64,000 nt of DNA, taken from contig NZ_JASJOU010000012.1 in assembly GCF_030068605.1 (NCBI RefSeq), positions 124,001 to 188,000 of the forward strand. The letters are read 5' to 3'. This DNA comes from Xanthocytophaga agilis. GTDB lineage: Bacteria > Bacteroidota > Bacteroidia > Cytophagales > 172606-1. Made by a program: the position numbers and the translations under genes. Below the pieces are notes generated by a model. That model ran no database searches. It was not told the origin of the DNA and was given only the letters and a program-made list of their open reading frames with translations. Shown here one piece after another: positions 5,287-8,925 of this stretch. The first letter of the stretch is position 1, and the number at the start of each line of letters is the position of its first letter.

Positions 5287-5988
5287 TCAGGTACTTACTG
5301 TGACAATCTGGTTGTTTTCTTTGGTATACAATGTAGTAATACGTTGGTTTCTTCCATCGAAATAGGTAGCATATTCTTCTGAGAATTGAGATCGTTTCGC
5401 AACAACTTCTTCAAAATTACCCTGAAGGCCAAGTATTAACTCACTCATCTCCCGAACGCTATGCATTTCATTGGTACTGGCATAATCAGCCAGATCTCTG
5501 TTTTTTACATAAGTAGCAAATAACGGGGCTGTATTTCTTTTTACCATTAACCGAAGACCTACTACTGCCGCAACGGAGAGATCTAATACATCATCAAATA
5601 CAAAGGCTACTTCCTCAGGTTTTAGATTATAAGTTTGAAGTAAATGTTGAAGTGCCTCTCCTTTATTCTTTATTCGAAAATATACTGCATCAAAATGTTC
5701 TCGCTGAGCAAGTGCAATGCTGGAAAGGTTTTTTTCGCCAGTCATAATTCCTACAAAGGCATATTCCTGAGCATGGCGAAGCCAATGGCCAAATCGTAAT
5801 AGATTAACCCCCATTGAGTCAAGTTCAGAAAACGGACTGCTTCCATCCGGAAACTTACTTCCATCTGTAAATACGCCATCCCAGTCGAAAAGATAGGCGC
5901 GAATTTTAGATACTTTCTGGATCAGTATTTCCGGAGAAGTGAAAACTTCTCCTCCATTTGCTGTAAATAAAGAGAGAATTGGATGCAT
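5287..5988 (-). CDS. kdsC: KdsC-like HAD phosphatase (3-deoxy-D-manno-octulosonate 8-phosphate phosphatase)
   Basis: HAD-superfamily hydrolase with KdsC features. The nucleophile motif is LFDWDGVFTDG, motif II is GIMTGEKN, the conserved lysine is in IKNKGEAL, and motif III is VAFVFDDVLDLSVAAVVGL. The tail VREMSELILG also follows KdsC. KdsC releases phosphate from Kdo-8-phosphate, the product of KdsA encoded 2 kb upstream in the same direction. Canonical KdsC has about 180 residues; this one has about 50 extra C-terminal residues and an N-terminal extension. The frame is open to an ATG at 6042, but a TATCTTTG promoter box covers that ATG, so I place the start at 5988. A paralogous HAD sugar phosphatase is the main alternative. 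Confidence 0.78.
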   Translation of the reverse strand: MHPILSLFTANGGEVFTSPEILIQKVSKIRAYLFDWDGVFTDGSKFPDGSSPFSELDSMGVNLLRFGHWLRHAQEYAFVGIMTGEKNLSSIALAQREHFDAVYFRIKNKGEALQHLLQTYNLKPEEVAFVFDDVLDLSVAAVVGLRLMVKRNTAPLFATYVKNRDLADYASTNEMHSVREMSELILGLQGNFEEVVAKRSQFSEEYATYFDGRNQRITTLYTKENNQIVTVST

Positions 5989-6039
5989 AGAGTGTATATA
6001 AACAAAAAAGAGGAAAGAACGAAAGTACATACCAGATTG

Positions 6040-6047
6040 CAAAGATA
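6040..6047 (-). promoter_or_regulatory. candidate internal promoter -7 box for kdsC-like gene
   Basis: Minus strand reads TATCTTTG, matching TAnnTTTG. It overlaps the upstream in-frame ATG at 6042, which would then not be transcribed; this supports translation from 5988. No clear -33 TTG was found. Confidence 0.4.
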
Positions 6048-6102: not shown

Positions 6103-7125
6103 TTAGATCAGATCCCACTTTGCCATATCCTGGATATCCAGCATACCCACTACCTGATCATTATCTGTAACAATGATTGTGTCGATTTGCTTTTCTTTAA
6201 AGATAGCCAGTGCTTCATTCAATAATGCATCTGCAGGAATAGTAGTTGGAGTCTTATATTCAAACGCAGACATTTTCTGGCTCATTAAGTTTTTACCATT
6301 AGATGCCAACTGGCGACGCAGATCTCCATCTGTAAAGATACCTAGCAAACGACCATCCTCTTTCATCACGCTAACAGCACCAAAACCAGACTGAGTCATT
6401 TGTACTACAGCATCCAATACTTCATCATGCAGTTTCACAACAGGATTTTTATCACTGATGATATCACGAACCCGCATAGTAACCAGACGAGTATGTTCAA
6501 AGAACTGTTGTGTACCTACTGTTGTAAAGTTATTGTCAGTTAAGATTTTCATTAACTTCCATGGTACAGTAATAGTATGGCAGCCCAGTTCGATAGCATT
6601 ACGTACGTGTTCAGTATTACGTACAGAGGAGAACATTACTTTAGCATCAGAACCATAGTAGTTGATCATATCCACACACTCACGGATCAATTTCAGGGCA
6701 TCATACCCCTGATCCTGCATCCGGCCTGCCAGTACACAAACATAGTTCGCTCCAGCTGTCATCGCCATATATGCTTGCTGAATAGTATATACCAGGTGCA
6801 CATTGACCATCATACCACGATCACGCAGTGCTTTACAAGCTTTTACACCTTCCAGAGAAACTGGAATTTTAAATACCGTTTTAGCTGGATCAAGCCCCAG
6901 TGCTAATTGGCGTTCTGCATCTTTAATGATTTCGTCTGCTGTGCTACCCAACGCTTCAATCTGCAATACAGGCACAATTTTCGAAAGATTTACAATCATT
7001 GCATCTACATCCGTAACACCTTCACGGTGCATGAAAGTGGGAGTAGTTGTAAGGCCGGTCAGAAAGCCTAATTTCATCCCGGTTTCAATCTCTTTTAAGT
7101 CAGCAGAATCTAAGTATAATTCCAT
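6103..7125 (-). CDS. transaldolase/fructose-6-phosphate-aldolase domain fused to a KdsD-type CBS pair
   Basis: A 340-residue chimera. Residues 1-215 are a TalC/FSA-type TIM barrel: start MELYLDSADLKEIE, Schiff-base lysine K86 in VFKIPVSLEG, and GR in the segment after strand 5. Active-site positions depart from E. coli FSA: TTNP is TTTP (T28), T109 is His110, and the APY stretch with Tyr131 is C130-V131-L132. Residues 218-340 are two CBS domains, the first with GIFTDGDLRR (262-271), a signature of the CBS pair of arabinose-5-phosphate isomerase KdsD. The usual SIS isomerase domain is absent. It lies between kdsC-like and kdsA genes, so a role in supplying or controlling arabinose-5-phosphate for Kdo is inferred. 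Enzymatic activity is unproven. Confidence 0.85.
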   Translation of the reverse strand: MELYLDSADLKEIETGMKLGFLTGLTTTPTFMHREGVTDVDAMIVNLSKIVPVLQIEALGSTADEIIKDAERQLALGLDPAKTVFKIPVSLEGVKACKALRDRGMMVNVHLVYTIQQAYMAMTAGANYVCVLAGRMQDQGYDALKLIRECVDMINYYGSDAKVMFSSVRNTEHVRNAIELGCHTITVPWKLMKILTDNNFTTVGTQQFFEHTRLVTMRVRDIISDKNPVVKLHDEVLDAVVQMTQSGFGAVSVMKEDGRLLGIFTDGDLRRQLASNGKNLMSQKMSAFEYKTPTTIPADALLNEALAIFKEKQIDTIIVTDNDQVVGMLDIQDMAKWDLI

Positions 7126-7193: not shown

Positions 7194-7787
7194 TCAGGTA
7201 GATAACAGTTTAGCAAAATAGGTTGTCATCCAGCGGGGCAAAGTTGGGGATTTTGATTTGATTTTTCCTAATTCTGCATACAAAACAATTCTGGGTGTTG
7301 AAATAATAGAGTTATCAATAAAAAGAAACCGATCAAATTTGGCAAAATGGTGATGTACATGAGTTATACCACCATTGAAATTAAGCTCAATACTGCCTGT
7401 ATCTACATCATGCCCACCTTTTTCTACCCGTAAGGCAACCCTGCGTATACTTTCTGCAATAGAACCTATTCCCATATAAAACATATTGATCTCATAACCC
7501 TGTTTCTGAAACGCTAATGGCAAATCTATGCTACTTGGAAATGTAAAGTTGGTTTCATAGGCAAAGTCTTCGTGTTTTTCCAGCGCATCTGACCATCTCT
7601 TTTCAAATTCTCTGGCGGCAAGATGTTGTATTTGTTCCCAGGGAATAGCTTTGTATTTTAGACTTAATTCTTTTTGAAGAAGATCTCCATCAAATACATC
7701 TATATTGGCATTGACAAGCCATTTGGATAAAACACTTTTCCCTGCTCCATTTGGTCCTGCAATAACATAGAGTTGTGGTTTATCCAT
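7194..7787 (-). CDS. zeta-toxin-like P-loop kinase
   Basis: A 197-residue P-loop protein. The Walker A motif is VIAGPNGAGKSVLSK at residues 8-22, followed by FDGDLLQ, YETNFTFPSS and RVEKGGHDV. These match the zeta-toxin/UDP-N-acetylglucosamine kinase family, including the conserved Asp after strand 2 and the RV-x2-GGH-x-V stretch. Zeta toxins phosphorylate UDP-GlcNAc and block wall synthesis; chromosomal homologues may have other substrates. Its start overlaps the end of the small upstream gene by 8 bases, typical of translational coupling in toxin-antitoxin pairs. It sits inside the Kdo gene run, 68 bases before the transaldolase-CBS gene. Confidence 0.8.
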   Translation of the reverse strand: MDKPQLYVIAGPNGAGKSVLSKWLVNANIDVFDGDLLQKELSLKYKAIPWEQIQHLAAREFEKRWSDALEKHEDFAYETNFTFPSSIDLPLAFQKQGYEINMFYMGIGSIAESIRRVALRVEKGGHDVDTGSIELNFNGGITHVHHHFAKFDRFLFIDNSIISTPRIVLYAELGKIKSKSPTLPRWMTTYFAKLLST

Positions 7788-8028
7788 TTAGCACACGTAC
7801 TACTGATTCTTTTCGGGTGTAAATATTAAAATGAATCAGGTGTTTGCTTCCATCTGCATATTCATTCACAAAATGAAATTCAGATTCACAACAGGTAGTA
7901 TCTATGTAGGAAACAGGTAATCCTTTTTCGAATAACTCTTGTTTTATAGCAAGAACAGCAGGCAATAGCCTTTCTGTAAATTCACTTTCCGTTAATTCCC
8001 AGATGGGTTTGGATTCCTGCATATTCAT
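7780..8028 (-). CDS. small hypothetical protein, candidate partner/antitoxin of the zeta-like kinase
   Basis: An 82-residue acidic protein with no motif I recognise. It has a helical N-terminus (ELTESEFTERLLPAVLAIKQELFEKG) interrupted by a CC pair at residues 45-46, then a beta-rich C-terminus. It overlaps the downstream zeta-like gene by 8 bases and starts 51 bases after kdsA. Position and size suggest an antitoxin or accessory subunit (inference only). It does not obviously resemble the epsilon antitoxin. The ATG start at 8028 is preceded by an AT-rich leader. Confidence 0.65.
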   Translation of the reverse strand: MNMQESKPIWELTESEFTERLLPAVLAIKQELFEKGLPVSYIDTTCCESEFHFVNEYADGSKHLIHFNIYTRKESVVRVLNG

Positions 8029-8079: not shown

Positions 8080-8925
8080 TTAAACAGTAACTGCTTGTCT
8101 GTATTTTACCTCTACTTCATGTAGTTCAATCAAAGGCTTCAGAAACTCTTCCAGTTCATATACGCTCAACTGACTAGCTGCATCACAAAGTGCATGAGAC
8201 GGATCAGGATGTGTTTCAATGAAAACACCATCTACACCAGCTGCTACACCAGCACGGGCAATCGTTGGCATTACCGGACGATTTCCGCCTTTTGGATCTG
8301 CACTTGGGATACCATATTTACGGATAGAGTGAGTAATGTCGAAAACAACAGGGAATCCGGTTTGGCGCATGAAATAGAAAGAACGAGGATCTACTACCAT
8401 GTCATTGTAGCCAAATGTATACCCACGTTCAGTAAGGATAATCTGGTCATTTCCTGAGTCTACCGCTTTTTGAGCAGGTTTGCCCATGTTATCAGGAGCA
8501 AGAAACTGTCCGTGTTTAATATTGATTACTTTACCAGTCTTGGCAGCAGCTACCATCAGGTCAGTTTGCATACACAGATAAGCAGGAATCTGAATTATAT
8601 CCAGTACTTCTGCTGCTTTCAATACTTGTTCCGGATAGTGAACATCAGACAGAAGTGGAAAACCAAATTCTTCTTTGACTTTGGCCAGTACTTCCAGACC
8701 TTTTTCCAGACCTGGACCTGTATAATAATCCAGAGAGCTGCGGTTATCTTTCTGATAAGAAGATTTAAAAATTAATGGGATGTTCAGCTTTTCAGTTACC
8801 TCTTTTAGTTTCTCAGCTGTACGCATCATAATGCTTTCATCTTCAATCACACAGGGACCAGAGATCAGGAATAATTGATCACTACCACATTCGATATCCG
8901 CCACTTTAACAATTTTCTTGCTCAT
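8080..8925 (-). CDS. kdsA: 3-deoxy-8-phosphooctulonate synthase (KdsA)
   Basis: Condenses phosphoenolpyruvate and D-arabinose-5-phosphate into Kdo-8-phosphate for lipopolysaccharide inner core. At 281 residues it has normal length, with LFLISGPCVIEDE, KSSYQKDNRSS, GFPLLSDVHYPEQ, IQIPAYLCMQTDL, NIKHGQFLAP and FIETHPDPSHALCDAAS all present. Cys25 in GPCV sits where metal-independent enzymes have Asn, which puts this enzyme in the metal-dependent class. It is the first gene of the minus-strand run that leads to the zeta-like pair, the transaldolase-CBS chimera and the kdsC-like gene. The start is ATG at 8925. Confidence 0.97.
   Translation of the reverse strand: MSKKIVKVADIECGSDQLFLISGPCVIEDESIMMRTAEKLKEVTEKLNIPLIFKSSYQKDNRSSLDYYTGPGLEKGLEVLAKVKEEFGFPLLSDVHYPEQVLKAAEVLDIIQIPAYLCMQTDLMVAAAKTGKVINIKHGQFLAPDNMGKPAQKAVDSGNDQIILTERGYTFGYNDMVVDPRSFYFMRQTGFPVVFDITHSIRKYGIPSADPKGGNRPVMPTIARAGVAAGVDGVFIETHPDPSHALCDAASQLSVYELEEFLKPLIELHEVEVKYRQAVTV

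Follow-up and report, generated by a model that had tools for sequence, protein, structure and literature searches.

The usual arabinose 5-phosphate (A5P) isomerase, KdsD, seems to be missing from many Bacteroidota, which instead carry a protein in which a TalC/FSA-type aldolase barrel is fused to a KdsD-type CBS pair. This fusion very probably takes over from KdsD the supply of A5P to KdsA, a role assigned because no KdsD was found in the Xanthocytophaga agilis assembly, because the fusion and KdsD exclude and exchange with each other among genomes, and because the fusion is linked to Kdo genes. Kdo is a lipopolysaccharide (LPS) component, A5P is its starting sugar, and the formation of A5P, for which KdsD is taken as the bacterial route, is the first committed step to Kdo.

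Kdo locus and domain architecture of the fusion

In the window, which is the whole 64,000-nucleotide stretch of X. agilis DNA analyzed here, a Kdo locus lies on the minus strand with genes in the order kdsA, a zeta-toxin-like kinase gene, the fusion gene, and a kdsC-like HAD gene. These genes and the two parts of the fusion are as follows.

8080..8925 (-), KdsA (Kdo-8-phosphate synthase) of the fusion-linked clade, passing the equivalog cutoff (345 versus 314 bits)
7194..7787 (-), zeta-toxin-like kinase (Pfam), its gene flanked by kdsA and the fusion gene
6103..7125 (-), fusion of a TAL/FSA barrel (residues 1 to 211) and a KdsD-type CBS pair (residues 215 to 336), the proposed A5P-forming enzyme
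6493..7125 (-), transaldolase/FSA-like TIM barrel of the fusion, with Schiff-base lysine K86 and pocket residues T28, H110, C130, and L132 (Pfam, alignment, and Foldseek)
6118..6483 (-), CBS pair of the fusion; by sequence profile, the solved structures closest to it are the A5P isomerase CBS pairs 4o9k, 3k2v, and 3fna
5287..6042 (-), divergent KdsC-like HAD phosphatase, the genome's best KdsC candidate (54.5 versus a cutoff of 208 bits and 41.5 versus a cutoff of 107 bits)

The fusion is a single ATG frame of 340 amino acids, and it joins the barrel containing K86 to a CBS pair with the motif GIFTDGDLRR, as an earlier sequence-only reading of this DNA had claimed. Residues 3 to 211 match Pfam TAL_FSA (PF00923) with 110 bits against a gathering score of 27, which makes the barrel a member of that superfamily. 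Two CBS stretches are recognized by Pfam with 65 bits. The KdsD/KpsF model TIGR00393 matches residues 215 to 329 with 66 bits against a curated cutoff of 203.7 bits, and the match covers only model positions 153 to 267, the CBS half; the SIS isomerase domain is absent, and the TAL_FSA barrel stands in its stead. The fusion also scores below the FSA equivalog model TIGR00875, with 144 bits against a cutoff of 245.95. The protein is neither a KdsD, having no SIS domain and scoring under the KdsD cutoff, nor a canonical FSA, scoring under the equivalog cutoff and having a changed donor pocket.

The structure was predicted, as the sequence-only reading had suggested. The AlphaFold2 model is confident, with a mean pLDDT of 88.6, but its pTM is 0.59, so the placement of the barrel relative to the CBS pair is uncertain and their packing was not used. 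In Foldseek searches, the solved structures nearest to the whole model were the TalC-type transaldolases 1vpx and 3r8r, with the FSA 1l6w at rank 39, and the model of the CBS part alone retrieved the A5P isomerase CBS pairs 4o9k and 3k2v at ranks 1 to 4 and 3fna at rank 7. The same three were the top three solved structures in a profile search by sequence. In addition, a profile built from 30 KdsD proteins scored the fusion CBS pairs (the best ten and that of the window) at about 77 to 83 bits and the other CBS proteins of the genome at no more than 38 bits. By both profile and fold, the CBS pair of the fusion is therefore of the KdsD type.

Two genome sets were used for comparison, namely, a survey set of 98 genomes, comprising the X. 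agilis genome and 97 relatives, and a peptide pattern scan of named genomes that gave at least 549 relatives, of which the best 80 were kept (the named loci). The fusion frame is neither a chance join nor an assembly error of a single genome, because it is carried by 38 of the 98 survey genomes at identities of 55 to 100% (as split or cut pieces in G005 and G055) and all of the best 80 named loci have such a frame. The locus of Xanthocytophaga flavus (L078) is nearly identical to that of the window, with identities of 100% for the fusion and 99% for KdsA.

The position of the fusion between kdsC-like and kdsA genes had been recognized correctly from the sequence, the intervening kinase gene having gone unmentioned. 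A relative of this kinase occurs near the fusion in 2 of the 80 named loci (the best 80 of at least 549), and the kinase is outside the conserved module. An 82-amino-acid frame (7780-8028, minus strand), read by eye, overlaps the start of the kinase frame, and the two, lying between kdsA and the fusion, resemble a two-gene unit; there is a weak PADLOC match to AriA (E 0.0008). The HAD phosphatase is far below both KdsC cutoffs listed above, and its second-best family is KDN 9-phosphatase (46.8 bits; cutoff, 180). No KdsC over the cutoff was found in the genome, where this HAD is the best match, and it perhaps represents a divergent KdsC family.

Search for KdsD in the X. agilis genome

The X. 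agilis assembly comprises 9.77 Mb in 66 contigs, with a completeness of 100 and a contamination of 0.98. The sequence-only reading had counted a normal kdsD in this genome as part of a result that would speak against its proposal; a profile search of the assembly found no KdsD over the cutoff, the best matches covering the CBS half only. Weak matches to the SIS half of the KdsD model (E 0.01 and 0.03) were GlmS and GmhA. The SIS proteins of the genome with E values below 0.01 are GlmS, which was read from two SIS stretches in a 620-amino-acid frame that was not run against families, GmhA, which is over its equivalog cutoff, MurQ, which is over its cutoff, and a Pgi/Pmi-like protein, which is over the cutoff of one of six models. 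We rejected the idea of a hidden A5P isomerase consisting of a SIS domain only, since the SIS matches with E values below 0.01 are taken up by these four proteins; two further matches, with E values of 0.6 and 0.8, were taken as chance. Neither a SIS-CBS KdsD nor another unassigned SIS isomerase was thus found in the genome, and this, together with the mutual exclusion described below (bar two genomes), supports the earlier suggestion that the SIS domain of KdsD has been replaced.

Later steps of the pathway are represented. KdsB is over its cutoff with 210 bits, and a Pfam Glycos_transf_N protein, read as WaaA, is over its cutoff with 146 bits. Because KdsA, KdsB, and a WaaA-type protein are present without KdsD, some A5P maker is required, and the sole candidate found is the fusion. 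The genome also contains two stand-alone TalC-type genes, and the fusion therefore need not be the transaldolase of the cell.

Distribution of the fusion and KdsD among genomes

In the survey set, KdsD is over the cutoff in 47 genomes and KdsA in 79. The 79 KdsA-positive genomes divide into 33 with the fusion only, 44 with KdsD only, 2 with both, and none with neither. The two genomes with both (G003 and G007) each have two kdsA genes, one adjoining the fusion and the other adjoining KdsD in G003 and lying 5.6 kb from KdsD in G007. Of the 19 genomes without KdsA over the cutoff, 15 have neither protein, 3 have the fusion (G002 and G033, which show partial kdsA genes, and G005, which is 75% complete), and 1 has KdsD (G017, which is 88% complete). 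The exclusion has a Fisher's P value of 3e-20, a statistic that ignores relatedness, and more telling is that 7 of the 22 families (f1, f4, f8, f10, f18, f19, and f20) hold both states. The fusion and KdsD look exchangeable. In a wider sample of the phylum, the fusion is rare, being found in 6 of 395 genomes, X. agilis included. The three fusion genomes of this sample that lie outside the order (G185, G379, and G471) have no KdsD over the cutoff and have KdsA at most 0.7 kb from the fusion. No plasmid-borne copies of the fusion were found at an E value of 1e-40.

Gene neighborhoods of the fusion

The best 80 of the at least 549 relatives come from Xanthocytophaga, Runella, Siphonobacter, Raineya, Thermonema, Thermoflexibacter, Chryseolinea, and many Bacteroidota bins. 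Two bins labeled Deltaproteobacteria (L149 and L157) carry the fusion with kdsA and a HAD gene, and L149 also has kdsB and a distant WaaA-like gene; these cases represent gene transfer or misbinning. A Kdo or Kdo8N gene lies in the fetched flank (up to 6 kb, often less) in 63 of the 80 named loci and within 200 bp on the same strand in 60 of them, and all 158 matches to such neighbors are on the strand of the fusion. The neighbors include KdsA (52 loci), HAD (51), KdsB (17), KdnA (16), KdnB (16), and WaaA (5). The sequence-only reading had also held that wide occurrence away from Kdo genes would count against it, and such loci are a minority; linkage stands in the 63 loci, and no Kdo or Kdo8N gene was seen in the fetched flanks of the other 17 (Runella and others). 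Loci of the latter kind include L080 to L089, which are mostly from Runella and among which several flanks are short. In the survey genome G016, kdsA is on a different contig from the fusion.

The names KdnA and KdnB derive from a single representative of each, whose near solved relatives are 5k8b (E 1e-127) for KdnA and 5k8c (E 1e-126) for KdnB. These enzymes presumably make 8-amino-Kdo from Kdo, i.e., they act after Kdo is made. KdnA- and KdnB-like genes are present in the fusion loci L107, L119, L124, L140, and others, which predicts 8-amino-Kdo in the LPS of these organisms.

The loci without a Kdo neighbor, together with the TalC-like fold of the barrel, would suit a regulator or an ordinary transaldolase of the pentose phosphate pathway, with A5P being made by an unrecognized enzyme. 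We consider this explanation quite improbable, because stand-alone TalC-type genes with the ordinary pocket are present in X. agilis and in fusion-bearing relatives, all 33 KdsA-positive genomes without KdsD have the fusion, and the search of SIS proteins in X. agilis left no isomerase unassigned.

Fusion-linked KdsA clade and exchange of partners

A KdsA tree was built with 41 sequences chosen from 81 over the cutoff. One clade (support, 100/100) contains all 18 fusion-linked sequences and 2 KdsD-linked sequences, and the other 21 KdsD-linked sequences are placed apart. The two KdsD-linked members of the clade, from G034 and G062, are sister to the sequence of the fusion-bearing G016 of the same family. 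Neither genome has the fusion, and both have a KdsD over the cutoff that is located elsewhere than kdsA. Their kdsA is followed directly by a HAD gene whose product is 48% (G034) and 47% (G062) identical to that of the window, and in G034, kdsB is next. Thus, a KdsA-HAD module of the fusion type pairs with either partner. In a comparison of 28 chosen positions, the clade is uniform for A61D, F117Y, K139H, and Q205R (E. coli numbering) against E. coli and nearly all the other sequences. G034 and G062 share all four changes, and these residues therefore do not follow the partner.

These data bear on the possibility that the sugar of the module is a different one, with the barrel producing another aldose phosphate for use by a divergent KdsA and the KdsC-like HAD. 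The separate KdsA clade with its four uniform changes and the HAD that misses the KdsC cutoffs and has KDN 9-phosphatase as its second-best family speak for such a sugar. However, G034 and G062 combine a KdsA of this clade, including the four residues, with KdsD, the window KdsA passes the equivalog cutoff, KdsB and the WaaA-type family pass theirs, and the KdnA and KdnB present in addition at some loci have Kdo itself as their substrate. A different sugar is accordingly improbable, and both partners most likely deliver the same compound, A5P. The exchange of the KdsA-HAD module is the strongest evidence for this, and its base is two related genomes, that is, one event.

Active site of the barrel

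In the alignment, K86 of the fusion falls on a lysine in both E. coli FsaA and TalB; we take these to be the Schiff-base lysines K85 and K132, respectively. E57, K86, N108, R135, S167, and R169 are invariant in 30 of 30 aligned fusions and in 80 of 80 named fusions, two sets that overlap. D6 and T28 are invariant in the 30 aligned fusions, which alone count for these two positions, since the peptide patterns of the named-genome scan cover them. The Schiff-base lysine and the catalytic Asp/Glu of the TAL/FSA superfamily (K86, D6, and E57) are therefore present in all 30 aligned fusions.

The donor pocket that FSA and the transaldolases have (N28, T109, S/A129, and F/Y131 in FsaA numbering) is changed. 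From FsaA to the fusion (window numbering), the changes are N28 to T28, T109 to H110, Y131 to L132, and A129, which is S in TalC, to C130; the first, second, and third had been read correctly from the sequence, and that at C130 is additional. H110 and L132 are invariant in all 30 aligned and all 80 named fusions, and C130 is present in all 30 aligned fusions and in 77 of the 80 named ones, the other 3 having T. The 21 usable stand-alone TalC proteins have N28, T110, S130, and F132, and H110 is absent from all of the 21 TalC proteins, FsaA, and TalB compared. In the barrel tree, the 30 fusions are on one side of a branch, and the 21 TalC proteins and FsaA are on the other side (SH-aLRT, 100), with FsaA on a very long branch whose position is unsure.

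N28 presumably contacts the C1 hydroxyl of dihydroxyacetone. Contacts to the extra CH2OH group of dihydroxyacetone are lost by the changes of N28 to T and of S/A to C130, which fits a donor that lacks that group. In FsaA, the substitution A129S, introduced so that residue 129 would bond the C1 hydroxyl of dihydroxyacetone, is described as tuning the donor preference toward dihydroxyacetone (PMC3962088), and the double substitution L107Y:A129G is reported to increase the efficiency of glycolaldehyde self-addition by more than 3 orders of magnitude (PMC10079672).

Proposed reaction and regulation

We infer that the product of the fusion is A5P and propose, more cautiously, a donor, an acceptor, a role for each residue, and a ligand of the CBS pair. 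By class I aldol chemistry, K86 would form a Schiff base with glycolaldehyde, the resulting enamine would add to glyceraldehyde 3-phosphate (GAP) held by R135, S167, and R169, and A5P would be released to KdsA. The CBS pair, being of the KdsD type, most likely makes the enzyme subject to feedback from an end product; CMP-Kdo is the probable ligand, as we also take it to be in 4o9k. Addition of glycolaldehyde to GAP is, in our estimate, a little short of an even chance as the chemistry of the fusion. The whole picture of a natural aldolase route to Kdo, in which an A5P synthase dedicated to joining glycolaldehyde with GAP would be under the control of the CBS sensor taken from the isomerase that it replaced, is put forward tentatively. 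To our knowledge, the formation of A5P from glycolaldehyde and GAP is known only from an FSA side activity and from synthetic pathways. FsaA and FsaB are reported to give A5P from these two substrates (PMC6298115). When E. coli with an FsaA variant was fed 13C2-glycolaldehyde, Kdo, identified by mass only, was nearly 100% M+2, which the authors attribute to endogenous FsaA/FsaB or the variant catalyzing the reaction of glycolaldehyde with GAP (PMC10079672).

Several points count against the aldol reading. H110 could serve isomerase chemistry, 17 of the 80 named loci have no Kdo gene in the flank, and the fusion occurs in only 6 of the 395 genomes of the phylum sample. That the fusion and KdsD have been exchanged in several families speaks for a substrate that is universally present, for instance a pentose phosphate. 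We know of no glycolaldehyde source of the needed size; FolB releases glycolaldehyde in folate amounts only, by our estimate. No gene for such a source was recognized among the 22 most frequent neighbor groups (within 4.5 kb in the 80 loci), of which the searches named the Kdo and Kdn groups only. Transketolase leakage was rejected as a source, as its one-substrate reaction is described as giving erythrulose and not free glycolaldehyde (PMC7403953).

With no sufficient natural glycolaldehyde source found, direct conversion of a pentose phosphate to A5P is a close rival. The barrel would act as a ribulose-5-phosphate isomerase or a ribose-5-phosphate 2-epimerase under CBS feedback control, and the isomerase, by analogy with triosephosphate isomerase, might proceed through an enediol by means of K86, H110, and E57. 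Such an enzyme would take over from KdsD directly and like for like, using a substrate generally available in cells, and this reading accords with the swap of the two proteins in several families, with the lack of a recurrent neighbor recognized as a glycolaldehyde source (although most of the 22 groups are not annotated), and with the T-to-H110 change, which is the most drastic one in the pocket and is found in 30 of 30 and 80 of 80 fusions. On the other hand, we know of no TAL/FSA member that isomerizes sugars, and the aldol set D6, K86, E57, R135, and S167 is fully kept, beyond the needs of an isomerase. Isomerization of ribulose 5-phosphate through a Schiff base would stall as an Amadori amine and is rejected on chemical grounds, which leaves the enediol route, for which K86 would need a new role. 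The pentose phosphate conversion is thus a real possibility that we regard as on balance doubtful, and any other A5P-forming chemistry is scarcely credible. If the aldol route holds, it would be the natural counterpart of the FSA side activity and of the synthetic pathways, and it would imply an unrecognized glycolaldehyde flux in many Bacteroidota.

Comparison with known systems

Among open-licence papers, as represented by titles and the beginnings of abstracts, none describing this fusion or a KdsD gap in Bacteroidetes was found. On the genome evidence, a known pathway step would be carried out in the place of KdsD by a nonhomologous, retooled aldolase barrel. Extending through many genera of Bacteroidota, such a replacement would close a gap in their metabolic reconstructions, give the transaldolase family a further function, and provide a case of a regulatory domain that is retained when its catalytic partner is swapped, and it points to an unrecognized way of making and controlling A5P.

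The fusion resembles the SIS-CBS proteins KdsD, KpsF, and GutQ in the type of its CBS pair and very probably, by exclusion and exchange, in its place in the Kdo pathway, whereas it has no SIS domain and its catalytic part is an unrelated TIM barrel. With the TalC-type transaldolases and FSA (FsaA, 3r8r, 1vpx, and 1l6w), it shares the fold, the Schiff-base lysine, and the acid-base and phosphate site residues, and it differs from them in T28, H110, L132, and, nearly always, C130, in the fused CBS pair, and in its position on the opposite side of the barrel tree. The Kdo8N loci with KdnA and KdnB overlap with the fusion loci in part, each gene being present in 16 of the 80 and not seen in most flanks. 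The synthetic assimilation of glycolaldehyde through FSA to A5P has the same net reaction as that proposed here for the fusion (PMC6298115 and PMC10079672). However, the FSA route is engineered or incidental, whereas that of the fusion would be a dedicated and regulated biosynthetic step and, if the aldol chemistry holds, would offer a natural catalyst for a reaction that designers of synthetic pathways use.
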